The notes under the pieces were generated by a model. It saw only the letters and a program-made list of their open reading frames with translations, did no database searches and was not told where the DNA came from. Source: Sulfitobacter guttiformis (lineage in GTDB: Bacteria > Pseudomonadota > Alphaproteobacteria > Rhodobacterales > Rhodobacteraceae). From it: a DNA stretch of 64,000 nucleotides. The DNA is taken from positions 682,001 to 746,000 of the forward strand of contig NZ_RAQK01000002.1 in assembly GCF_003610455.1 (NCBI RefSeq), in the 5' to 3' direction. Below are positions 51,668 to 63,559 of the stretch, piece by piece (the first letter of the stretch is position 1; each line of letters begins with the position of its first letter). Made by a program: the position numbers and the translations under genes.

Positions 51668-53662
51668 ATGACCGATACCACCAACGCATCCTCCAACACC
51701 AAGCGGATCGAAGAAGTCGCCATCGACGGAGAAACCCCTGCAGAACGCATTGCGGGACCTGCGCGCTGGGTCGTAGTAATTGGCACGCTTTTGTCGCTTG
51801 TGCTGGTCGTAAACCAGCTGTTCAACCTCCAGATCATGGGCATCGTCCTGATCGAAGGTCGCTATCTCTACATCCTTGGCGGCATGTATCTTGCACTCAG
51901 CTTCCTGATTTTTCAGATGCGCGGAGGCAAGGGCGGTACGCCCTCCCTGCTCGACTGGGGTCTTTTCGGAATCGCGGCTGCCTGCACGGTCTATCTGGCG
52001 CAAACAGCTCAACAAAACCTTTCGTCGGGCTGGGAATATGCTGCGCCGCAGACTGCGCAATATGTCTCGGTCGTCTTCTTCTTTCTTGTACTTGAAGCAA
52101 CGCGGCGTGCAGGGGGCCTTGTCCTGTTCCTCATTGTTACGTTGTTCGCGTTCTACCCGACGTTCGCGGGTGTGGTGCCTGATCCTTTCTCGGGGTTCCA
52201 GAGCACGTTCATGCAAACCGTTCCCTATCATGTTTTCTCCTCCGAGAGCTCATTCGGCATCCCGATGAAGGCCTTTGGCGGTGTAGTTATCGGCTTCATC
52301 CTCTTCGGGGCCGTGCTGCAACGTACCGGAGGCGGCCAGTTCTTTAACGATCTGGCGCTTGGTATGGTCGGTGGCTACCGCGGTGGCGCTGCGAAAGTAT
52401 CAATCTTCGCCAGTGGTTTCATGGGATCGATGTCCGGCTCGGTCATTTCCAACGTGTTGACCACCGGCGCCGTTTCAATCCCTGCCATGCGCAAAACCGG
52501 ATTTTCCGCAAAAACCGCTGCAGCGACCGAGGCATGTGCCTCTACCGGCGGTGTGTTGATGCCCCCCATCATGGGCGCCACGGCATTTATTATGGCCTCC
52601 TTCCTTTCGCGCCCTTATGTCGAGATCGCTCTCGCAGCGGCCATCCCCAGCATCCTGTTTTACTGGGGCCTGTTCACCGGCATCGACGCTTATTCCGCAA
52701 AGCGCGGCCTCAAGGGCCTGCCGAAGCCCGACCTCCCGCAGCTGCGTGCCGTCATGGCCGAAGGCTGGCCCTATATCTTCGTGTTTGCACTCCTGCTTTA
52801 TATGATGATCGGTCTGCGTCAGGAATCGTCCGCGCCATTCTATGCGACAGCACTTTTGCTGGTGGTAAACCAGTTCCGTGCACGCTTCCGCCTCAACCGT
52901 GTCCGCCTTGGTAACATGATTGTCGGTGTCGGCATGGGTCTGGCCGAGCTTACCGCGATTTTGCTTGGCGTTGGCCTCATCGTTGGGTCGTTCTCAGCCA
53001 CAGGTCTTGCTGGCACACTGGTTAACGAGCTGGTCTTTATGGCCGGTGACAATACGTTGGTCCTGCTGGGCATGGGCGCGCTTACCGCGTTCATCTTTGG
53101 CATGGGGATGACAGTCACAGCCTGCTATATCTTTTTGGCGGTGGTCCTCGCGCCTGCGCTGGAAGCAGGCGGGCTCAACACACTCGCTGTCCACTTGTTC
53201 ATCCTGTACTGGGGTATGGTCAGCTTCATCACGCCACCCGTAGCACTCGGCGCATTTGCGGCCTCGACCATGGCGGGCTCCAATCCAATCGCAACAGGGT
53301 TCGAGGCCATGCGCCTCGGCGGGGTGATCTACATTGCGCCATTCTTCTTCGTGCTTAACCCTGCCCTCATCGGGCAGGCTCCTGCGTGGGAGGTTGTGGT
53401 CGCACTGACGAGTGCGATGATCGGGGTCGCAGTGATCTCCTCGGCTTTGCAAGGCTACATCAGTCTTGTTGGACCAATCGAGGGGCCGATGGCCTATCCC
53501 TTGCGCATCTTGCTGTTTGTTGGCGGTGTTCTTATCGCAAAGCCCGAAACAGAGCTGCTGCCGCTGAGCTATGCAGGGTCCTTCGCCATTGGTGCACTTT
53601 TGTGCGCGCTGCCCTTCTACCTTGCGTGGCGGGCCAATCAAACTGATCCAAGAACGGCGTAA
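51668..53662 (+). CDS. TRAP transporter fused 4TM/12TM permease
   Basis: The 664-residue membrane protein fuses the small DctQ-like and large DctM-like subunits, as is usual for TAXI systems. Helices start near residue 32; the conserved large-subunit motifs include SVISNVLTTGAVSIPAMRK, ATEACASTGGVLMPPIMGAT and LFILYWGMVSFITPPVALGA. It drives uptake with an ion gradient. It starts about 80 bases after the binding-protein gene and ends 6 bases before the ligase gene. Confidence 0.92.
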   Translation: MTDTTNASSNTKRIEEVAIDGETPAERIAGPARWVVVIGTLLSLVLVVNQLFNLQIMGIVLIEGRYLYILGGMYLALSFLIFQMRGGKGGTPSLLDWGLFGIAAACTVYLAQTAQQNLSSGWEYAAPQTAQYVSVVFFFLVLEATRRAGGLVLFLIVTLFAFYPTFAGVVPDPFSGFQSTFMQTVPYHVFSSESSFGIPMKAFGGVVIGFILFGAVLQRTGGGQFFNDLALGMVGGYRGGAAKVSIFASGFMGSMSGSVISNVLTTGAVSIPAMRKTGFSAKTAAATEACASTGGVLMPPIMGATAFIMASFLSRPYVEIALAAAIPSILFYWGLFTGIDAYSAKRGLKGLPKPDLPQLRAVMAEGWPYIFVFALLLYMMIGLRQESSAPFYATALLLVVNQFRARFRLNRVRLGNMIVGVGMGLAELTAILLGVGLIVGSFSATGLAGTLVNELVFMAGDNTLVLLGMGALTAFIFGMGMTVTACYIFLAVVLAPALEAGGLNTLAVHLFILYWGMVSFITPPVALGAFAASTMAGSNPIATGFEAMRLGGVIYIAPFFFVLNPALIGQAPAWEVVVALTSAMIGVAVISSALQGYISLVGPIEGPMAYPLRILLFVGGVLIAKPETELLPLSYAGSFAIGALLCALPFYLAWRANQTDPRTA

Positions 53663-53667
53663 GTGCA

Positions 53668-55236
53668 ATGATAGAGATTACACCGCCCTACTCTGCCACA
53701 GCGCCAACCGAAAACATCGTGACACGCCTGCGGAGCAATGCCGCCAGCCATCCAGAAAAGCTGGCGCTTGTGTGCGGCGCGCAGCGTGTCACATGGGCCG
53801 CGTTCGATGCCCGCACAAACAAGGTCGCGCAAATGCTATTCGGCATTGGCGTGGCCAAGGGCGACAACATCGCCATCCTGTCAGCCAATTCGGTCCCCTA
53901 CGCCGAGTTGTTTATCGGGATACTCAAAGCCGGCGCTTGTGTAACGCCACTCTCCTCAATGGCGTCCCCCGATGCGCTGAAAAAGATGCTCGAGGATTGC
54001 GGCGCGAAGGCCATCTTCGTGGCTGAAAACTATGCGCCACTGATTGCAGACTTTATCACTGGTCTGCCGCTATCCCGCTTTGCGATCGATTTTGCGCAAG
54101 AAGGATATGAGGACTTCGAGGCCGCGCTGGCACAAGCCAACGAAACCGATCCTGAAATATCCATATCTCTAAGCGACCCCTTCAATCTCATCTATTCCTC
54201 CGGCACCACAGGCACACCGAAAGGTATTGTGCACAACCACCAGATGCGTGCCGCACAGATGGAGCGGGTTACCCCGAACGGATACGACGACAACGCGCGC
54301 ACGCTGATCTCTACACCGCTATATTCCAACACGACCATTGTGTCGTTCATACCCACGCTTTTTGGCGGCTCCACTGTATATCTTATGCCAAAATTCGATG
54401 CACGTGCTTATCTCCAGATTGTCGAGGCAGAGGCGATCACCCATACCATGCTGGTCCCTGTTCAATATAAACGCATCATGGATGTCCCTGATTTCGACAG
54501 CTTTGATCTGTCGTCAATGCGGATCAAATTCTCGACCTCTGCGCCGCTGCGCGCAGATGTAAAACGTGATGTGCTGACACGTTTTCCGGGCAAGCTGATC
54601 GAATATTACGGCCTGACAGAAGGCGGCGGCGTGACCGTTCTGGTAGCTGATGACAACCCGACCAAACTGCACACCGTAGGGCAAGTTGCACCGGGCAACG
54701 ACATCCGCCTCATCGACAGTGCCGGCAAAGAGGTGCCACAAGGCGAGGTTGGCGAGATTTGCGGCCGCGGCCCCACGATGATGGCCGGCTACTTTGGCCG
54801 CGATGATCTGACCTCCGACTACATCTGGCGCAACCCGCAGGGAGACATCTATTTCCGCTCCGGTGATATGGGATCGTTTGATGCCGACGGCTTTTTGGTT
54901 CTTTCCGACCGCAAGAAGGATATGATTATCTCTGGCGGGCTGAACATCTATGCAAACGATCTGGAGCTTGTCCTGCTCGAAGATCCCGACGTGACCGATG
55001 CCGCCGTAATCGGTGTCCCTTCGGAGGCTTGGGGCGAGACGCCTCTGGCTCTGGTTGTGCTGGATGAAAATGCCATCCGTAGCTCTGATGATATTCTTGC
55101 CAGAGCAAATAGCAAACTGGGCAAGAGCCACCGCCTCTCTGCTGTAGAAATCCGCGATGTCCTGCCTCGCAGTACGATCGGCAAAATCCTGAAAAAAGAC
55201 TTGCGCGCCCCCTATTGGGAAAAGGAAACACAGTGA
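53668..55236 (+). CDS. AMP-forming acyl-CoA ligase
   Basis: The 522-residue adenylate-forming enzyme has YSSGTTGTPKGIVHNHQM, EYYGLTEGGGVTVL, RSGDMGSFDADGFLVLSDRK and the catalytic-lysine end STIGKILKKDLR. It should activate the acid brought in by the TRAP system. The substrate is unknown; it is not close enough to a named subfamily for me to assign one. GTGA overlap with the next gene shows coupling. Confidence 0.88.
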   Translation: MIEITPPYSATAPTENIVTRLRSNAASHPEKLALVCGAQRVTWAAFDARTNKVAQMLFGIGVAKGDNIAILSANSVPYAELFIGILKAGACVTPLSSMASPDALKKMLEDCGAKAIFVAENYAPLIADFITGLPLSRFAIDFAQEGYEDFEAALAQANETDPEISISLSDPFNLIYSSGTTGTPKGIVHNHQMRAAQMERVTPNGYDDNARTLISTPLYSNTTIVSFIPTLFGGSTVYLMPKFDARAYLQIVEAEAITHTMLVPVQYKRIMDVPDFDSFDLSSMRIKFSTSAPLRADVKRDVLTRFPGKLIEYYGLTEGGGVTVLVADDNPTKLHTVGQVAPGNDIRLIDSAGKEVPQGEVGEICGRGPTMMAGYFGRDDLTSDYIWRNPQGDIYFRSGDMGSFDADGFLVLSDRKKDMIISGGLNIYANDLELVLLEDPDVTDAAVIGVPSEAWGETPLALVVLDENAIRSSDDILARANSKLGKSHRLSAVEIRDVLPRSTIGKILKKDLRAPYWEKETQ

Positions 55237-56801
55237 CTGACAGTAAAACGACCCCCATGAACGGCGCAGAAAGCCTCGTGACGACCTTGCTGGCCAACGG
55301 GGTGAACGTCTGTTTCACCAATCCTGGCACGTCCGAGATGCATTTTGTGGCAGCCCTCGATCATATCCCCGGAATGCGGTCGATCCTTGCTCTGCAAGAA
55401 GGAGTCGCCACCGGTGCTGCGGACGGTTACTACCGGATGACCGGCAAGCCCGCATCGACACTGCTGCATCTGGGGCCAGGTCTGGCCAACGGATTATCAA
55501 ACCTTCACAACGCGAAAAAGGCGGGCTCGGGTGTTGTCAACATCATCGGCGAGCACGCATCAACCCATATCGAGTTGGACGCACCGCTGACCTCCGACAT
55601 AGAGGGGATTGCGCGGCCTGTTTCTCATTGGGTTCATACTTCGAAATCAGTGGCCACCGTAGGCGCGGATGCTGCGCGGGCGGTTCAGTCCGCCATGACC
55701 GCACCGGGCCAGATCGCCTCGCTGATCCTGCCCTCCGATACGGCGTGGAACGAAGGTGGCGTGGCCCATGGTGCGATTGATCTGCCTGCCCCTGCCCCCT
55801 TTGACGAGAGCCAGCTTGAGGCTGCCGTATCAGCACTCGACGGGCCGGAGACTTTGCTGCTGCTCGGCGGTACCGCCCTTACGGAAGCAAACCTCGAAAT
55901 CGCGGGGCGCATCGCGGCCAAGACCGGCTGCGCACTGCTGTCGGAATGGTCCAATGCACGGCTAGAACGTGGCGCAGGCCGGGTGTTCATCGGGCGTGTT
56001 CCCTACCCGATTGATATCGCTTTGAAAGTGTTGGAGCCTTTCAAACAGATCGTGCTGATCGGTGCCCGAGCCCCAATAGGATTTTTCGCCTATCCTAACA
56101 AGCCTGCTATTCTGACGCGGGAGGGCGCCGAGATCACAACACTGGCAGCTGCGGGTGCGGACCTTGGGGGCGCGCTGACGGCGCTGTGTGCTGCGGCAGG
56201 TGCCACAGATACCGACCCCGCACATGTTGTTACCGCCGCCCAACCTGAGCGCCCCACTGGGCGCATCAATCTCGATAATCTGGCAGCGCTCATTGCCCGC
56301 GCCATCCCCGAGGATGGGATAATCGTCGACGAGTCCGTGACTTCGGGACGCGCATTCTCTCCCGCGACAAAGGGGGCACCGCGACACACATGGCTGAACA
56401 ATTGCGGCGGCTCTATCGGGTACGGCATGCCTGCGGCGATCGGCGCAGCCGTTGCCTGCCCTGATCGCAAGGTGATGTGCATGACCGGCGATGGGTCTGC
56501 GATGTATACCGTTCAATCGCTCTGGACCATGGCGCGTGAGAAACTGGACATTACTGTTCTGATTTTCGCCAACCGCAGCTACCAGATCTTGCGCGGGGAG
56601 CTTACGAATGTGGGCGTCCAGAACGCCGGTCCGCGCGCGATGGACATGCTCAGCCTTGAGCGTCCAACTCTGGACTGGGTTCAGATGTCCCACTCAATGG
56701 GTGTGCCTGCAGTGCGCGTAAGCGAATGTGAAGAACTTGAGGCAGCCCTGCAGGACGGGCTGGAAAGCGGTGGCCCTAACCTGATCGAGATCGTGTTGTG
56801 A
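55233..56801 (+). CDS. Thiamine diphosphate enzyme (acetolactate synthase/decarboxylase type)
   Basis: About 522 residues with the ThDP-family layout: N-terminal pyrimidine domain with the catalytic Glu in ILALQEGVATGAADGYYRM, a middle domain, and a C-terminal diphosphate domain with GDGSAMYTVQSLWTMA ending in the cofactor-binding FANRSY. It is annotated broadly as a large-subunit-like acetolactate synthase but is not in an ilv context. Here a lyase or decarboxylase acting on an acyl-CoA or 2-oxo acid is more likely. The GTG start overlaps the ligase stop. Confidence 0.85.
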   Translation: MTDSKTTPMNGAESLVTTLLANGVNVCFTNPGTSEMHFVAALDHIPGMRSILALQEGVATGAADGYYRMTGKPASTLLHLGPGLANGLSNLHNAKKAGSGVVNIIGEHASTHIELDAPLTSDIEGIARPVSHWVHTSKSVATVGADAARAVQSAMTAPGQIASLILPSDTAWNEGGVAHGAIDLPAPAPFDESQLEAAVSALDGPETLLLLGGTALTEANLEIAGRIAAKTGCALLSEWSNARLERGAGRVFIGRVPYPIDIALKVLEPFKQIVLIGARAPIGFFAYPNKPAILTREGAEITTLAAAGADLGGALTALCAAAGATDTDPAHVVTAAQPERPTGRINLDNLAALIARAIPEDGIIVDESVTSGRAFSPATKGAPRHTWLNNCGGSIGYGMPAAIGAAVACPDRKVMCMTGDGSAMYTVQSLWTMAREKLDITVLIFANRSYQILRGELTNVGVQNAGPRAMDMLSLERPTLDWVQMSHSMGVPAVRVSECEELEAALQDGLESGGPNLIEIVL

Positions 56802-56833: not shown

Positions 56834-58222
56834 ATGACTATCGCCCTGAAAAATTTGCCACAAATTCAGACGCTTCTGACCTATCCGGCAATTGCCGCGT
56901 TGGTGGACCTCTTTAGCCACACCGAGACTGTAGATGCACTTCGAGGAGTGATTGCGGACCTGCGCGCCGCTATTCTGGCAGAGGATGCCGCCCTTCCAGA
57001 TTTCGAAAGCGCTGTTTTTGCAGCCACCGTGTTGCACCGGATCGAAGCGCGCCGCGCGCCCTCTCTGGTGCCGGTGATCAACGCTACGGGCATCATCATC
57101 CACACAAATCTGGGCCGTGCGCGCCTGGCCCCCGAGGCCTTACAGGCGATGCATGTCGCAGGCGAAAGTCCAAGCAACCTTGAACTGGATCTTGGCACGG
57201 GCAAGCGCGGATCACGCCACACCCATGTCGAAACGCTCATTTGCGAGCTAACGGGGGCACAAGCCGCTGTGGTGGTAAACAACTGTGCGGCGGCGGTTCT
57301 GTTGAGCCTGATGGCCACAGCACAGGGGCGCACTGTTGTGGCCTCGCGAGGGGAGTTGATCGAGATTGGCGGATCCTTCCGTCTGCCCGATGTGATTGCA
57401 CAAAGCGGGGCGACCTTGCGTGAGGTTGGGGCGACGAACAAAACCCGGATTTCCGACTACGATGAGGCGATCGATGATACCACAGCCGCTCTGCTGAAAA
57501 GCCATACCAGCAATTTCAAGATCATCGGCTTTACCGCTGCGCCCGACCGCCGCGAGCTGGCCAAACTGGCAAAGCAACGGAATGTCATCCTGATGGAAGA
57601 TCTGGGCAGCGGCGTGTTGATTGACCTGTCGCCTTACGGTCTGGGAGACGAACCTGTGGTCGGTGAGATCCTCAAATCTGGGGTCGATCTAGTGATGTTT
57701 TCGGGAGATAAACTGCTGGGCGGACCGCAGGCGGGGATCATCGCGGGTCGGCGCGATATCGTGGCCCAACTCAAATCACACCCTCTGATGCGGGCGGTTC
57801 GGATCGACAAACTGTCGCTTGCCGCGCTCGAGGCGACATTGCGGCTCTACCGCACGCCCCACGATCCGTTGCGCGACGTGCCGGTTTTGGCGATGCTGTC
57901 AGAGCCGATAGAAGCAGTTGAGCAACGCGCCCGCGAGATGATGCAGGCATTGTGGGACGTGGGGATCACGGATGTGGATCTCCACAACAGCACAGCCTAC
58001 GCTGGCGCAGGATCCCTGCCACAACAGGATCTAGAGAGCTACGCCGTCAGCGTGAGTGTGCCTCACCTATCGGCAGACGCCCTCGCCACAGCGTTGCGCA
58101 AGGCTACCCCGCCAGTGGTGGGGCGGATCGAGCGCGGGCATATCATGCTTGATGCGCGCACGGTAACGGCGCCAGAAGTTTCATTGGTTGCCCGCGCCTT
58201 CGCGCGTATTTTGACCCCATGA
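56834..58222 (+). CDS. selA: L-seryl-tRNA(Sec) selenium transferase
   Basis: SelA is a PLP enzyme that converts Ser-tRNA(Sec) to Sec-tRNA(Sec) with selenophosphate. The 462-residue protein has the blocks PVINATGIIIHTNLGRARLA, VVNNCAAAVLLSLMA, EDLGSGVLIDLS and the PLP-lysine segment MFSGDKLLGGPQAGII. Its stop overlaps the selB start (ATGA). It follows the ThDP gene by only 32 bases. Confidence 0.97.
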   Translation: MTIALKNLPQIQTLLTYPAIAALVDLFSHTETVDALRGVIADLRAAILAEDAALPDFESAVFAATVLHRIEARRAPSLVPVINATGIIIHTNLGRARLAPEALQAMHVAGESPSNLELDLGTGKRGSRHTHVETLICELTGAQAAVVVNNCAAAVLLSLMATAQGRTVVASRGELIEIGGSFRLPDVIAQSGATLREVGATNKTRISDYDEAIDDTTAALLKSHTSNFKIIGFTAAPDRRELAKLAKQRNVILMEDLGSGVLIDLSPYGLGDEPVVGEILKSGVDLVMFSGDKLLGGPQAGIIAGRRDIVAQLKSHPLMRAVRIDKLSLAALEATLRLYRTPHDPLRDVPVLAMLSEPIEAVEQRAREMMQALWDVGITDVDLHNSTAYAGAGSLPQQDLESYAVSVSVPHLSADALATALRKATPPVVGRIERGHIMLDARTVTAPEVSLVARAFARILTP

Positions 58223-60135
58223 GCAAAGCTTGTGTTGTGGTGATCGGCCATGTGGATCACGGAAAGTCTGCCCTTGTCCGGGCCCTCACAGGAACCGAGA
58301 CCGACAGCCTACCGGAGGAAAAGCAGCGCGGATTGTCAATCACGCCCGGCTACGCGCACCGCAGCTATCCGGCAGGTGTGATTGATTTCGTAGACGCCCC
58401 AGGCCATGAGGATTTTATCGCGGCGATGGTAGCGGGCGCCAGTGGGGCGCGGGCGGCGCTCTTGGTAATCTCCGCCCGCGAAGGCATCGCCGCGCAAACG
58501 CTCGAGCACCTGCGCATTGCGCAGTTGCTTGGGATTGAAACAGGCATAATCGCCATCACAAAATCCGATCTGGTCGAGACGGCCGAACAAGACCTTTTGC
58601 GCCGCGAGATCCGCGCGGCGCTGGCACATTCGGTGTTTGCCACGGCACCAATCATATTCTGCTCAGCCCTGACAGGGGACGGGCTGGACAGTCTGAATGA
58701 TGCGCTCGAGAGCGTTCTGAAGATAAGTACGACGCAAGTTAACCCGCCTTCCGACAGCTTCCTGCCTATTGATCGGATTTTCACCCTTGCGGGTCTTGGC
58801 ACTGTCGTAACGGGCACTTTGCTGGGGGCCGATCTGACAACGGGCGGTGAGGCAGTGGTACTGCCCGAGGGTCGCAAGGTGAGCATACGGGGGTTGCACT
58901 CTCGCGGTCTGCCGCGAGAGACGGTCCACACGGGCGAGCGAACGGCCGCCAATCTGCGCGGCGTGGCCGTAGCCGATATCGCTCGCGGGTCTGTCTTGTG
59001 TGCCGCTGGCAGCTATGCGCCAAGCGTTTGTATCGATGTTGAAATCAGTCTTCTGCCCGATGCACCCGCGCCGCTCAAGCATAATCAGGATCTGCGCGTT
59101 CTGTTCGGAACCGCGCATGTGGTCGCGAACTTGCGGATATTTGGGGGCGACCAGCTCAGGAGTAAACACAGCGCGTTTGCACAACTCAGATTCAAGAGAC
59201 CTGTCGCAGGATTTGCAGGCCAACGCGCTATTCTGCGCCAGCTGTCGCCCGCAGCAACACTTGGCGGTGCTGTGTTTCTGGACCCGTTGGCAGCACCGGC
59301 GCGGGCCGGTGACGCTTCGCGTATTGCTGTGCTAGAGGCGGCCAGTGCCGGCGATCCATGCCATATCGCACATGCTCTTTGCACCAGTGCCAGTGCCAAA
59401 GGTATTGCCCGATTGTCTGATGTGGCGCGCCTTTCACGCAAACCTTTGGCAGGTTTACAAACCGCGCTACTCCCTGAATTTGATCTGTTGGAGGGCGATC
59501 TGATTGCCCCTCATTCGCGGATCAGCGGGTGCAAGGCTGAAATAATCGGCGCGCTCGCGACCTATCATATCCAGTTTCCGCTGCATTTGGCTGCTGCACG
59601 AACAATCCTTGCGAAACTGAACTTTGCGCGGCCCTTGCTCGATTATTGCGAGCGTGTCTTAATTGATAATGGTGACATCCTAGAAGCAGGCGCAGGATTA
59701 ACCTTAGAGGCACACGATCCGCTTACCCTGATGACGGACAAACAACACTCAAGAATGGCTGAAATGATTACTGTTTTCCGCGCCGCGGGGCTGTCACCGC
59801 CAGCAGCAGCAACAGTTGTCCATGACCAGACTGACGCAGACCTTCTGGCGCTTTGCATCGACACCAGAGCGCTCACCGCGCTGCACAATGTGGGCCTTGA
59901 CCAGCGGCTTGTTCTGGACACGCAGGCCGTGCAATCCGCCGCCGTGACCCTGCTGTGCGCCTTCCCGCCCCCGCATGAATTTACCACAAGCGCTGCCCGC
60001 TCTGCCCTTGAAACCTCGCGGCGCGTTATCGTGCCCTTGCTCGAGCATTTCGACACATGCGCCATCACCCTGCGCAGCGGCGATACCCGCCGTATGGCAA
60101 AGGCGATTTCGGTTCCAACCCATGATGCGAATTGA
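58219..60135 (+). CDS. selB: Selenocysteine-specific elongation factor
   Basis: SelB is the GTPase that brings Sec-tRNA to UGA codons by binding the mRNA SECIS hairpin. The 638-residue protein has G1 GHVDHGKS, G3 DAPGHEDF, G4 TKSD, EF-Tu-like domains II-III (GTVVTGTLLGADLTTGGEAV) and a C-terminal extension of winged helices that bind the hairpin. It sits between selA and selC. Confidence 0.97.
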   Translation: MSKACVVVIGHVDHGKSALVRALTGTETDSLPEEKQRGLSITPGYAHRSYPAGVIDFVDAPGHEDFIAAMVAGASGARAALLVISAREGIAAQTLEHLRIAQLLGIETGIIAITKSDLVETAEQDLLRREIRAALAHSVFATAPIIFCSALTGDGLDSLNDALESVLKISTTQVNPPSDSFLPIDRIFTLAGLGTVVTGTLLGADLTTGGEAVVLPEGRKVSIRGLHSRGLPRETVHTGERTAANLRGVAVADIARGSVLCAAGSYAPSVCIDVEISLLPDAPAPLKHNQDLRVLFGTAHVVANLRIFGGDQLRSKHSAFAQLRFKRPVAGFAGQRAILRQLSPAATLGGAVFLDPLAAPARAGDASRIAVLEAASAGDPCHIAHALCTSASAKGIARLSDVARLSRKPLAGLQTALLPEFDLLEGDLIAPHSRISGCKAEIIGALATYHIQFPLHLAAARTILAKLNFARPLLDYCERVLIDNGDILEAGAGLTLEAHDPLTLMTDKQHSRMAEMITVFRAAGLSPPAAATVVHDQTDADLLALCIDTRALTALHNVGLDQRLVLDTQAVQSAAVTLLCAFPPPHEFTTSAARSALETSRRVIVPLLEHFDTCAITLRSGDTRRMAKAISVPTHDAN

Positions 60136-60151
60136 TAGCATAATCACATCC

Positions 60152-60246
60152 GGAGGTGACCGGAGTCTGGTGGCTTCCCTGGTCTTCAACACCATGGACA
60201 CGCATATGCTGCGTGTGGTGGGTTCGATTCCCATCCACCTCCGCCA
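60152..60246 (+). tRNA. selC: tRNA-Sec (anticodon UCA)
   Basis: A 95-base tRNA with GGAGGTG pairing to CACCTCC, anticodon TCA (60186-60188) in the loop CTTCAAC, the long variable arm typical of Sec tRNA (ACACGCA ... TGCGTGT), the T arm GGGTTCGATTCCC, and a G discriminator followed by encoded CCA. It lies 16 bases after selB, giving a full selABC set. Confidence 0.95.
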
Positions 60247-60336
60247 TATCACAAATCTGGCAAAAATCGGCAGGCATAGCGCTGGACATTGCCGTGCGGG
60301 CATTGCCAAAATGAACCACACCATCGGGAGACAGAC

Positions 60337-61926
60337 ATGAGCAGCACACAACCGGCGTTTACCCTCAAGGATCTGGACGGGGCCGCGCACAGCCTGCCCG
60401 AGGATCGCTACAGTCTGATCTGTTTTGTCAAGGAAGACTGCGAGACGTGCAATACCGCAGCACCGGTTCTGGAGGCCTTGCATTCCGCCTACGCAAGCAA
60501 GGTCACCACCGTTTTGATTGCGCAATCGGGAGCACAGAATGCCACCTATGCGGCGCGCCATGCCCTCACGATGCCAGTGCTTGACGATACCGCCTGCAAA
60601 GCGGCGTTCGACTGGGATATCGAGAGCGTCCCTTCGGTCTTCTGGATCAACGATGAAGGCGTGGTTGTGAGTAAATTCGAGGGGTTCATCCGCCCCGACT
60701 GGGAGGCGCTTGCCGCTGATATGAGCGCGGCAACCGCGCTGCCCGCTGCCCAGATAGACTGGAGCGCCCTGCCCGCGTGGCGACCCGGATGCGGATCAAA
60801 ACACCTCGACCCTGCCGTCTATGATAAATTGCGCGCAGAGGTCGACGGCAGCCCGATCCGCGCGCGCAAGATTGAAGTTGCGATCAGCGATGATGTGTCG
60901 GAATTCATGTTCGATCAGGGGTTCTCGGACGGCTTGCCACTGGTACCGCCCACACCAGAGCGGGTTATGCGGATGTTGGGCGGAACTCACCGTGATGCGC
61001 AGGACGTGATTGCGACCGTGCCCCCCAACATGGGGCTGGCCACTGTCGAGAAAATTGCAATCAATGCGGTGATGGCAGGGTGCAAGCCTGAATACCTGCC
61101 CGTAATCATCGCCGCTGTCGAGGCGGTATGCACCGATGAGTTCAACATCCACGGCGTTACCGCCACCACCATGGGTGCGGCCCCTGTTATGGTGATCAAC
61201 GGACCCATTCGCGACAGGATCGGCATGAACAAGGGCCTTGGTGCGTTGGGCGCGGGCAACCGCGCCAATGCCACCATCGGACGCGCCTTGCGCCTTGTGG
61301 TTCGTAATGTGGGCGGTGCGGCTACGGGCGGTGTTGAGCGTTCGGTGCTTGGCAACCCGATGAAATTTACGATGTGTTTTGCAGAGCACGAAGAACGCTC
61401 CCCCTGGCCTGCCCTGCACGTCGAGCGCGGGTTTGAGCCCGAGGATTCCGTCGTCACGGTGTTTGCGATGACCGGTGGTCCTGTACATATTGTTGACCAG
61501 ACTTCGCGGGCGCCGGACCAGATCGCAGGCTCTCTTGGCCTCGGGCTCGAAGGAGTGTTTTTGCCGAAGCTGCGCAATCTTCCCGTCGATGCCCTTTTGG
61601 TGGTCTGCCCCGAACATATCGACACCCTGATGCGCGAGGGGGAGTATTCAAAGGAGCGGCTACGCGACCGCATTCAGGAAGCCACGATGCGCCCTTTATC
61701 GGACATGGTTCAGGACGCTTACAGTGGCGCGGGCATTCCGCCCGACAAGGCGGCGCAGATGGGTCCCGAAGCGCTGGCACAACGCGTGCCAAAATTTGCG
61801 GGCACCGAATTCATCCACATCGTAGTTGCCGGATCGGACGCAGGTAAATTCTCGTCCGCGTTCCACGGCTGGGCAACTGGCGAAGTTGGATCGATTGCAG
61901 TGTCCAAAAAAATCGACTTGGGCTAA
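60337..61926 (+). CDS. Thioredoxin-domain fusion protein beside the UGSC selenoprotein
   Basis: The 529-residue protein begins with a thioredoxin/peroxiredoxin-like domain (about residues 6-130; CETC in FVKEDCETCNTAAPV, and the cis-Pro region VPSVFWINDEG). A second domain of about 370 residues follows (from RPGCGSKHLDP near 150; GFSDGLPLVPPTPERVMRML; TATTMGAAPVMVINGPI; GALGAGNRANATIGRALR) that I know only as conserved and uncharacterised. A GGGAG site precedes the ATG. It ends 35 bases before the selenoprotein gene. The redox domain makes a role in reducing or working with that selenoprotein plausible. Confidence 0.8.
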   Translation: MSSTQPAFTLKDLDGAAHSLPEDRYSLICFVKEDCETCNTAAPVLEALHSAYASKVTTVLIAQSGAQNATYAARHALTMPVLDDTACKAAFDWDIESVPSVFWINDEGVVVSKFEGFIRPDWEALAADMSAATALPAAQIDWSALPAWRPGCGSKHLDPAVYDKLRAEVDGSPIRARKIEVAISDDVSEFMFDQGFSDGLPLVPPTPERVMRMLGGTHRDAQDVIATVPPNMGLATVEKIAINAVMAGCKPEYLPVIIAAVEAVCTDEFNIHGVTATTMGAAPVMVINGPIRDRIGMNKGLGALGAGNRANATIGRALRLVVRNVGGAATGGVERSVLGNPMKFTMCFAEHEERSPWPALHVERGFEPEDSVVTVFAMTGGPVHIVDQTSRAPDQIAGSLGLGLEGVFLPKLRNLPVDALLVVCPEHIDTLMREGEYSKERLRDRIQEATMRPLSDMVQDAYSGAGIPPDKAAQMGPEALAQRVPKFAGTEFIHIVVAGSDAGKFSSAFHGWATGEVGSIAVSKKIDLG

Positions 61927-61961
61927 AATCGGGGCTAGGCTGCCCCCAGAGGAGGAGCAAT

Positions 61962-62489
61962 ATGACGATAATTCTCGACCCCACGGACGAACGTAAACCC
62001 GTGGAGCGACAAATAACCGAGCGCAATGGCACCCTGACGGGTGTCATAGGCCTGCTGGACATCAGCAAGCCGCGCGGCAATGTGTTTCTGGACGAGTTGG
62101 AAAGCCTGCTCGTCAAGCACGATGCCGGAATATCGGTGCGCCGATACATGAAGCCCACATTCGCCAAGCCCTGCCCAGACGTCCTGCGTCAGCAGATGCG
62201 TGACGAATGCAACTTTGTGATCGAAGCGCTGGCCGACTGAGGATCCTGTACGACGTGCAGTATGCACGACAATTTCTGGTTTGAAACCCAGGGGATCCCG
62301 GCAGTCGCCATCGCCTCGAGCGAGTTCGGCCAGGCCGCAATCGCGCAACGTAGCGCGCTTGGCATGAACGATGCGCGCTATCTCCTTGTGCCACATCCGA
62401 TACAGGATGCCACGGACGACGAGATGCGGACAAAAGCGCAAGAAGCGTTTGGCGATGTGCTCAAGGCGCTGACGCAGAACGATACGTAA
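61962..62489 (+). CDS. UGSC-family selenoprotein (Sec encoded by in-frame TGA)
   Basis: The frame starts at an ATG behind GGAGGAG and reads through a TGA at 62238-62240 to TAA at 62487, giving 175 residues with Sec at 93. The context is ALAD-U-G-S-C-TTC, the defining U-G-S-C motif of this family, with C96 and C99 beside it. Both halves look like one protein (FVIEALAD before; SMHDNFWFETQGIPAVAIAS after). A hairpin just downstream of the TGA fits a bacterial SECIS, and selA, selB and selC lie just upstream. Gene callers that treat TGA as a stop would split or truncate it. The biochemical function is unknown; a redox or catalytic Sec is likely. Confidence 0.92.
62241..62268 (+). promoter_or_regulatory. 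Bacterial SECIS element within the UGSC gene
   Basis: Starting 13 bases after the TGA, CGTGCA (62254-62259) and TGCACG (62263-62268) form a perfect six-base stem around the loop GTA. It resembles the TGCA-loop-TGCA top of the E. coli fdhF SECIS in sequence and in distance from the TGA. This is where SelB would bind to direct Sec insertion. Confidence 0.75.
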
Positions 62490-62644
62490 ACGAAACGGGC
62501 GCGGGCATACAACATGGCCGCGCCCGAATTTCACGACGGGTCGAACCATACGAATGCGTATTGATTAGTGTTATTCGATTTTTGCTGACGGATGCCCGCG
62601 CGGATGCCACGGTACAGAGATGTACCTCAAAAGGATTCCGCCCC

Positions 62645-63559
62645 ATGACGCTTACAAAAATCTGCGACGGCCTCGATTTTCCTGAAGGACCTATCGCTAT
62701 GGCAGACGGTTCCGTGGTCCTTGTTGAAATCCGGCGACAGACGCTGTCACGGGTGCAACCTGACGGCCAAATCGAGGTAATTGCCGCGTTGGGCGGCGGC
62801 CCCAACGGCGCTGCTGTCGGGCCGGACGGGATGATCTATGTCTGCAACAATGGTGGTTTTGTCTGGACCCAAACGGACGGTATCACCCGCCCGATCGGCA
62901 CACCCGACGATTACATCAGCGGCTCGATCCAGCGGGTAGATCCCGCAACCGGTAATTTCGAAACCCTGTATGAAAGCTGTGACGGGGTACCCCTGCGCGG
63001 CCCAAACGATATCGTGTTTGACACCGAGGGCGGTTTTTACTTTACCGATTTGGGCAAATCGAACGCGGATTATGTCCATCACGGCGCATTCTATTATGCA
63101 AAAGCCGATGGTAGCGAAATCCGCCGCATGCAGTATCCCATGATCACTCCCAACGGCATCGGCCTGTCGCCTGACGGCAAAACAGTCCATGTCGCCGAGA
63201 CGCGCACAGGCCGCGTCTGGAGCTTTGATCTGATCGGACCGGGCAAGATCGCCCCTTTGCCCTTTAACATGCCGGGGCGTCTGCTCACCACCCTCCCCGA
63301 CTACCAGTTGCTCGACAGTCTTGCCGTGCAGGCGGATGGCAAGATTTGTGTGGCCACCCTGATGCGCGGAGGTGTGAGTGTCGTCCCCGTAGACGGAGGA
63401 CCGGTGGAGTTCATGAGCGTGCCGGGGGATCCCTACATCACCAACATCTGTTTTGGGGGGGAAGATATGCGCGATGCGTGGATCACCGCGTCGGGGACGG
63501 GATGCTTGTACCATACCCGCTGGCCCGCCGCGGGATTGAAGCTTAATTATAACGCTTGA
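62645..63559 (+). CDS. SMP-30/gluconolactonase-family protein
   Basis: The 304-residue protein is a six-bladed propeller of the SMP-30/gluconolactonase/LRE family (DFPEGPIAMADGSVVLVEIR; GPNDIVFDTEGGFYFTDLG; TPNGIGLSPDGKTVHVAET). The metal-binding Glu and Asn positions are visible in those blocks. It probably hydrolyses a lactone. The ATG follows AAAGGA; the frame upstream is not used. It lies 155 bases after the selenoprotein gene and may belong to the same catabolic set. Confidence 0.88.
   Translation: MTLTKICDGLDFPEGPIAMADGSVVLVEIRRQTLSRVQPDGQIEVIAALGGGPNGAAVGPDGMIYVCNNGGFVWTQTDGITRPIGTPDDYISGSIQRVDPATGNFETLYESCDGVPLRGPNDIVFDTEGGFYFTDLGKSNADYVHHGAFYYAKADGSEIRRMQYPMITPNGIGLSPDGKTVHVAETRTGRVWSFDLIGPGKIAPLPFNMPGRLLTTLPDYQLLDSLAVQADGKICVATLMRGGVSVVPVDGGPVEFMSVPGDPYITNICFGGEDMRDAWITASGTGCLYHTRWPAAGLKLNYNA

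Follow-up and report, generated by a model that had tools for sequence, protein, structure and literature searches.

Known systems

In the part consulted of an ocean metagenome survey, UGSC ranks fifth in Table 2 with 255 selenoproteins, which makes it one of the commonest selenoprotein families there, and it is supposed to be thioredoxin-like (Trx-like) (PMC2398784). No function of UGSC was found stated in the literature searched, which was seen in part. The UGSC gene considered here lies at 61962-62489 of the window, the whole stretch of 64,000 nucleotides of Sulfitobacter guttiformis DNA that was analysed, and its product is a new member of this already known family. Profile comparison points to a probable remote relationship between UGSC and the selenocysteine (Sec) subunit of D-proline and glycine reductase (PrdB and GrdB; PF07355).

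For these reductases, the portions of the sources seen describe an attack of Sec on carbon (PMC10298544). The GrdB motif is given as UxxCxxC (PMC13188914); another source describes GrdB with STUG and proposes that a GrdB-like protein cleaves C-F bonds through Sec attack (PMC10838667). The literature searched, which did not include the original description of UGSC and was seen in part, holds no statement placing UGSC with PrdB or GrdB. Within it, the reassignment of UGSC away from the thioredoxin fold, its genome-counted pairing with the protein U1, and a clade linked to the sel genes appear to be new.

Reading frame and selenocysteine codon

61962-62489, + strand: UGSC family selenoprotein gene (PF24696, E 9.3e-46; NF041046, 165.6 bits; AlphaFold2 predicted local distance difference test (pLDDT) 93.7)
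62238-62240, + strand: in-frame UGA, read as selenocysteine 93, with Sec or Cys aligned in homologues
62247-62249, + strand: codon of Cys96 (UxxC motif), the proposed resolving cysteine, invariant in the 29-row alignment A1
62256-62258, + strand: codon of Cys99 (UxxCxxC), present in 27 of the 29 rows of A1

The UGA is almost certainly read as Sec, judged from the sequence comparisons. With TGA as Sec the gene encodes 175 residues and the motif U-G-S-C-T-T-C, in which U93 is directly followed by GSC. Translation with table 11 ends after 92 residues, so that ordinary annotation shortens the gene. The protein matches PF24696 (156.5 bits, cut-off 25) and NF041046 (165.6 bits, cut-off 125) over nearly its whole length, and a Shine-Dalgarno-like GGAGGAG precedes the gene at 61951-61957. 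The nearest fetched relative, L128, is 72% identical before the TGA and 70% after it. Differences between the two genes lie mainly at third codon positions, a purifying pattern on both sides of the TGA. Columns 93, 94 and 96 of A1 are invariant, and its rows have Sec or Cys followed by G-[SA]-C. The first-pass annotation had described one protein running across the TGA, GSC directly after it, and a gene that ordinary annotation would truncate; these three statements are borne out by the results above and by the following counts.

The main genome sample comprised 385 genomes of the host's class. UGSC matches occur in 40 of these, up to 8 per genome and 98 in total, and contain exactly one TGA in 92 cases and no stop in the other 6. 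In the loci read individually the TGA stands at the UGSC family position. Cys replaces Sec in 28 loci of a named collection, whose carriers include Methylobacterium, Bradyrhizobium, Elioraea, Cyclobacteriaceae, and Pseudonocardia; the scan sought a Cys pattern and tells nothing on the frequency of Cys. In 69 UGSC neighbourhoods the frame continues past the site, which is occupied by Sec or Cys. The 74 UGSC domains used for the tree divide into 40 Sec rows, 33 Cys rows, and L130 as the last row, and the numbers of Sec/Cys changes counted are minima from this one tree with several long branches. The Sec reading follows from the agreement of the TGA counts, the Cys homologues, the identity pattern with L128, and the hairpin comparison given below.

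Two relatives depart from the common pattern. L129:9778-10083 (genome G635, of the host's family) has Cys in place of Sec and a TGA further along the frame, which may reflect gene decay, a second recoding, or an error. The match at 8420-8854 of L130 (genome G667) has Cys at the Sec position, and Ser replaces the second Cys that is invariant in A1.

SECIS hairpin

62254-62268, + strand: selenocysteine insertion sequence (SECIS) hairpin with a 6-bp stem and the loop GUA at 62260-62262, found by folding and with comparative support from Sec versus Cys loci

The stem begins 13 bases downstream of the UGA, at 62254, where the first-pass annotation had placed a SECIS-like hairpin. In all 34 counted Sec loci, and in none of the 28 Cys loci, GT occupies positions 20-21 after the UGA. 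The five core pairs are all formed in 31/34 Sec loci versus 8/28 Cys loci, and where a serine stands at the loop place it is encoded by AGT in 19/19 Sec loci and 0/27 Cys loci. The mean folding z is -1.05 for Sec loci (n=34) versus -0.18 for Cys loci (n=28; Mann-Whitney p 6e-4), in related sequences that are not independent. Eight domains excluded by a motif filter are omitted from these 34 and 28 loci. The Rfam search gave no SECIS-type match at the hairpin site.

On the sequence evidence, it is regarded as established that the gene is a UGSC-family selenoprotein gene with a SECIS hairpin, sel-linked, and strictly associated with a neighbouring U1.

The proposed partner U1

60337-61926, + strand: thioredoxin-U1 fusion, the proposed electron-donating partner, which would be 16 residues longer if it started at the TTG at 60289
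60439-60450, + strand: CxxC of the thioredoxin domain (Cys35, Cys38); of the 34 rows in alignment A5 that fill this region, 33 have both Cys
60829-61923, + strand: U1 domain, with conserved Cys249 (48/50), Arg316 (50/50), and Glu350 (50/50)

U1 is probably the Unknown_1 of PMC2398784. Its alignment A5 has 50 rows, and the N-terminal thioredoxin region is filled in 34 of them. Of the 40 genomes with UGSC, 38 also have U1, and U1 is absent from all UGSC-free genomes among the 385 of the class. It occurs in the same stretch as UGSC in 65 of 69 loci; among 12 frames that were read, most of them divergent, 7 encode the two as a single chain. A Pfam search with thioredoxin-U1 matched only thioredoxin-type models, within the first 135 residues, and U1 itself had no Pfam match. 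The PDB sequence search with the fusion likewise returned only thioredoxin-type proteins below E 0.1. A VIA-align comparison of the whole fusion, in which U1 was not searched alone, was filled by thioredoxin folds.

In the frame L102:2673-4709, UGSC and U1 are fused and Cys stands in for Sec. Its start, judged by eye, resembles a signal peptide and suggests an exported form.

Probable kinship with PrdB/GrdB and predicted fold

The PF07355-type set consists of proteins from genomes of the same class and five database proteins, one of which is named D-proline reductase PrdB. In two members checked from the same class, PF07355 matches the part before Sec. Profile alignment of UGSC with this set places Sec on Sec. 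The hhalign P values, each of which applies to a single comparison, were 2e-5 and, in a second comparison, 4.2e-6 (probability 87), and the core gave 9.8e-7 (probability 91, score 48.3). Across comparisons the scores range from 43 to 48. Among 100 column-shuffled controls the maximum score was 21.2 with A3 and 22.6 with A1, and it was 11.4 with reversed profiles. The thioredoxin profile scored 13.2 and 15.4 against UGSC, which is background level. Sixteen unrelated neighbour families scored 28.2 at most, with 4 to 9 sequences in each control family versus 17 in the PF07355-type set.

The Pfam search with UGSC found, besides its own family, one unrelated model at E 0.3. A PF09338 (Gly_reductase) match of one divergent UGSC domain, at E 0.085, was given no weight because an unrelated enolase model matched other domains down to E 0.0036. 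In 10 of 12 PF07355-type proteins of the same class (L031-L042), an in-frame TGA comes right after the Pfam-matched part. The other two, L037 and L040, have Cys at that place.

The AlphaFold2 model of UGSC (pLDDT 93.7, predicted TM-score 0.88) has predicted strands at 27-33, 57-63, 85-91, 114-119, and 140-143, alternating with helices. In the model, Sec93 follows strand 3 and directly precedes a helix that begins at 94. Among solved structures, Rossmann- and flavodoxin-like folds come closest, without a clear winner. The PDB sequence search with UGSC found nothing below E 0.19, and with the PF07355-type set it gave a designed protein (E 0.0019) but no further match below E 1.

Proposed function and alternatives

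By analogy, the chances are marginally better than even that UGSC works like the Sec subunit of D-proline/glycine reductase. In the proposed mechanism, U1 would bind a small organic acid substrate, and the selenolate of Sec93, in the Rossmann/flavodoxin-like domain, would attack an activated carbon-heteroatom bond of the substrate. Cys96, and Cys99 of the UxxCxxC motif, would then free the product, with formation of a selenenylsulfide that the CxxC thioredoxin domain would re-reduce, supplying the electrons. The particular bond and substrate class, a carbon-heteroatom bond in a small organic acid, are the most speculative part.

A broader reading is tentatively offered, at somewhat less than even chances. 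UGSC and U1 would form a large and so far unrecognised class of reductive lyases that are fed by thioredoxin and have a PrdB/GrdB-type Sec domain, with U1 replacing the pyruvoyl subunit. The class would be used for several substrates in the catabolic clusters of environmental bacteria, and one clade would have stayed linked to the Sec-decoding genes. The evidence for Sec, the profile kinship, the UxxCxxC motif, the U1 partnership, the CxxC thioredoxin domain, and the catabolic neighbours in loci L106 and L083 were counted in favour of the proposed PrdB/GrdB-like mechanism.

Besides the limits given above for the P values and the control families, several results weigh against this mechanism. 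The homology signal spans about 50 to 90 columns around Sec. No direct Pfam match to PF07355 was found for the window protein, even at E 10, and the protein is therefore not filed as a PF07355 member; the host genome has no PF07355 match either. The canonical clostridial enzymes are linked only via the bridge set and were not aligned directly. A GrdB or PrdB structure is absent among the best solved-structure matches, which are generic Rossmann-like folds, so the fold cannot confirm the kinship. No partner of the GrdE/PrdA type was recognised, U1 being without a Pfam match and GrdA not having been searched for, and 4 of the 69 UGSC loci have no U1 in the stretch examined.

Other adverse results concern the Sec site. 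The stability of the window hairpin alone is unexceptional (z 0.08 versus shuffled sequence, z 0.11 versus synonymous recoding). Because that stability is no better than in controls, the support for the hairpin is comparative, from the contrast between Sec and Cys loci. Homologues that all end at the TGA, or that carry an unrelated residue there, had been named beforehand as evidence against Sec. The frame continues in the 69 neighbourhoods, with Sec or Cys at the site, yet among 15 database proteins read 6 end at the stop, 4 lose the frame nearby, 1 has Cys, and 4 have another residue (Gly in P0002, Trp in P0003 and P0006, Arg in P0004). Judged from the protein entries alone, the Gly, Trp, and Arg cases are read as errors or real losses, because each of these residues is one base change from UGA and because full-length database entries are biased towards sequences without a TGA.

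An alternative that is unlikely but deserves attention is that UGSC is a thiol-disulfide or peroxide reductase, in which the redox pair Sec93-Cys96 would relay electrons from the thioredoxin domain, a protein or a peroxide being the target. The published Trx-like reading is similar, and the UxxC pair and the thioredoxin domain on the partner U1 agree with this alternative. The part seen of PMC13188914 lists UGSC with Prx-, Trx-, and Grx-like proteins of Trx-like fold, in wording that is ambiguous on the fold of UGSC itself. The predicted model points the other way. The thioredoxin fold has its active site after the first strand, whereas the UGSC model consists of five strand-helix units in alternation and Sec comes after strand 3; this concerns the order of elements only. 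Solved thioredoxins are absent from the best 50 rows of each of two structural comparisons, which does not by itself exclude the fold. The profile score against thioredoxin is at background, and a dedicated U1 partner with catabolic neighbours would be unexpected for a general reductase.

It is improbable that Sec and the two Cys hold a metal or iron-sulfur centre; clusters of this kind are held by the chain ranked first in one structural comparison, which is probably Mmp7 of the methyl-coenzyme M reductase activation complex. Hardly any weight is left for the TGA as an ordinary stop with a 92-residue product, or for a decayed gene: the unremarkable single hairpin and the 4 deviating and 6 ending proteins among the 15 database homologues speak for it, but against it stand the single TGA in 92/98 matches, the 28 loci with Cys at the same place, the purifying pattern on both sides, the loop difference between Sec and Cys loci, the linked sel genes, and the fact that entries ending there are the expected output of a gene caller halting at TGA.

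If UGSC is of the PrdB/GrdB type with a fixed partner, its function becomes approachable through known chemistry, and its abundance would point to a substrate degraded by many environmental bacteria. The sel-linked clade is a handle on how genomes gain the use of Sec.

The sel genes and the neighbourhood

51668-53662, + strand: fused permease of a tripartite ATP-independent periplasmic (TRAP) transporter (TIGR02123, 514.8 bits, cut-off 320.65), with a homologue near UGSC in L106
55215-56801, + strand: thiamine-pyrophosphate (TPP) enzyme, acetolactate-synthase-like (NF005760, 744 bits, cut-off 363)
56834-58222, + strand: selA (TIGR00474, 568.4 bits, cut-off 267.9)
58219-60135, + strand: selB (TIGR00475, 269.9 bits, cut-off 242.25)
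60152-60246, + strand: selC, tRNA-Sec (ARAGORN; Rfam RF01852, 70.6 bits)
62561-63559, + strand: SMP-30/gluconolactonase-like gene downstream (PF08450, E 1.8e-44), with homologues near UGSC in L083 and L106

From upstream to downstream, the order is selA, selB, tRNA-Sec, the thioredoxin-U1 gene and, after 35 bases, the UGSC gene. The first-pass annotation was right that selA, selB, and selC lie upstream but not that they do so directly, the thioredoxin-U1 gene (60337-61926) being situated between selC and UGSC. selD is found elsewhere in the host genome, at C2:1181391-1182275 (L114, genome G000), and completes the set of selA, selB, selC, and selD. The selD match lies within an open frame of 731 residues and is possibly fused to another domain. 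At 53668-56801 of the window, overlapping genes for an AMP-dependent ligase and the TPP enzyme lead on to selA without a change of strand, and the sel genes may thus be part of a longer operon.

In the tree of 74 domains the window protein clusters with four others (L071-L073 and L128; support 100/97). In all five genomes of this clade, selA and selB share a stretch with UGSC and U1. The tRNA-Sec was found in four members (the window and L071-L073) and not in L128. The genes run in one direction in the window and L128, and are divergent in L071-L073. Among 149 sampled genomes from the host's family, 3 carry UGSC (a TGA form in two, a Cys form in the third) and 6 have a selA match above its cut-off, both genomes with TGA-UGSC being among these 6. 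Formate dehydrogenase is a usual Sec client. It has no in-frame TGA in the five clade genomes, and no search for other selenoproteins was made.

Around UGSC in L106 there are homologues of the window TRAP permease (46%), the SMP-30 protein (53%), the TPP enzyme (28% over 170 residues), and a putative substrate-binding protein (33%), whose name is a guess. L083 has an SMP-30 homologue together with hydantoinase A and B. This recurrence of catabolic neighbours concerns these two loci of 69 and comes without a background rate.

In five Bacteroidota loci (L048, L049, L052, L053, and L060), one gene family directly precedes thioredoxin-U1 and UGSC, and models of beta-keto acid cleavage enzymes match its L060 member. 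These loci also have a divergent gene similar to 3-hydroxyacyl dehydrogenase and a permease. A carnitine/betaine reading of this operon is suggestive, but none of the three neighbour genes reached a family cut-off and it is not claimed.

Comparison with known systems

UGSC shares the UxxC motif with thioredoxin-fold selenoproteins (Trx-like, Prx-like), and its partner bears a real thioredoxin domain. The predicted order of strands and helices in UGSC and the profile comparison disagree with that fold.

With PrdB/GrdB, UGSC has in common a Sec followed by xxC (xxC), a surrounding sequence that is similar by profile-profile comparison, a separate partner subunit, and a dithiol as the proposed electron source. 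It differs in the lack of a direct PF07355 match and in the partner U1, which is not a recognised GrdE/PrdA. A further difference is that several UGSC carriers belong to lineages usually regarded as aerobic.

The closest agreement is with the UGSC family itself, in the full-length match, in Sec or Cys followed by G-S-C, and in U1 as fusion partner or neighbour in the loci read. Nothing essential separates the window protein from this family; it is a member of the sel-linked clade, with the thioredoxin-U1 gene as its neighbour.
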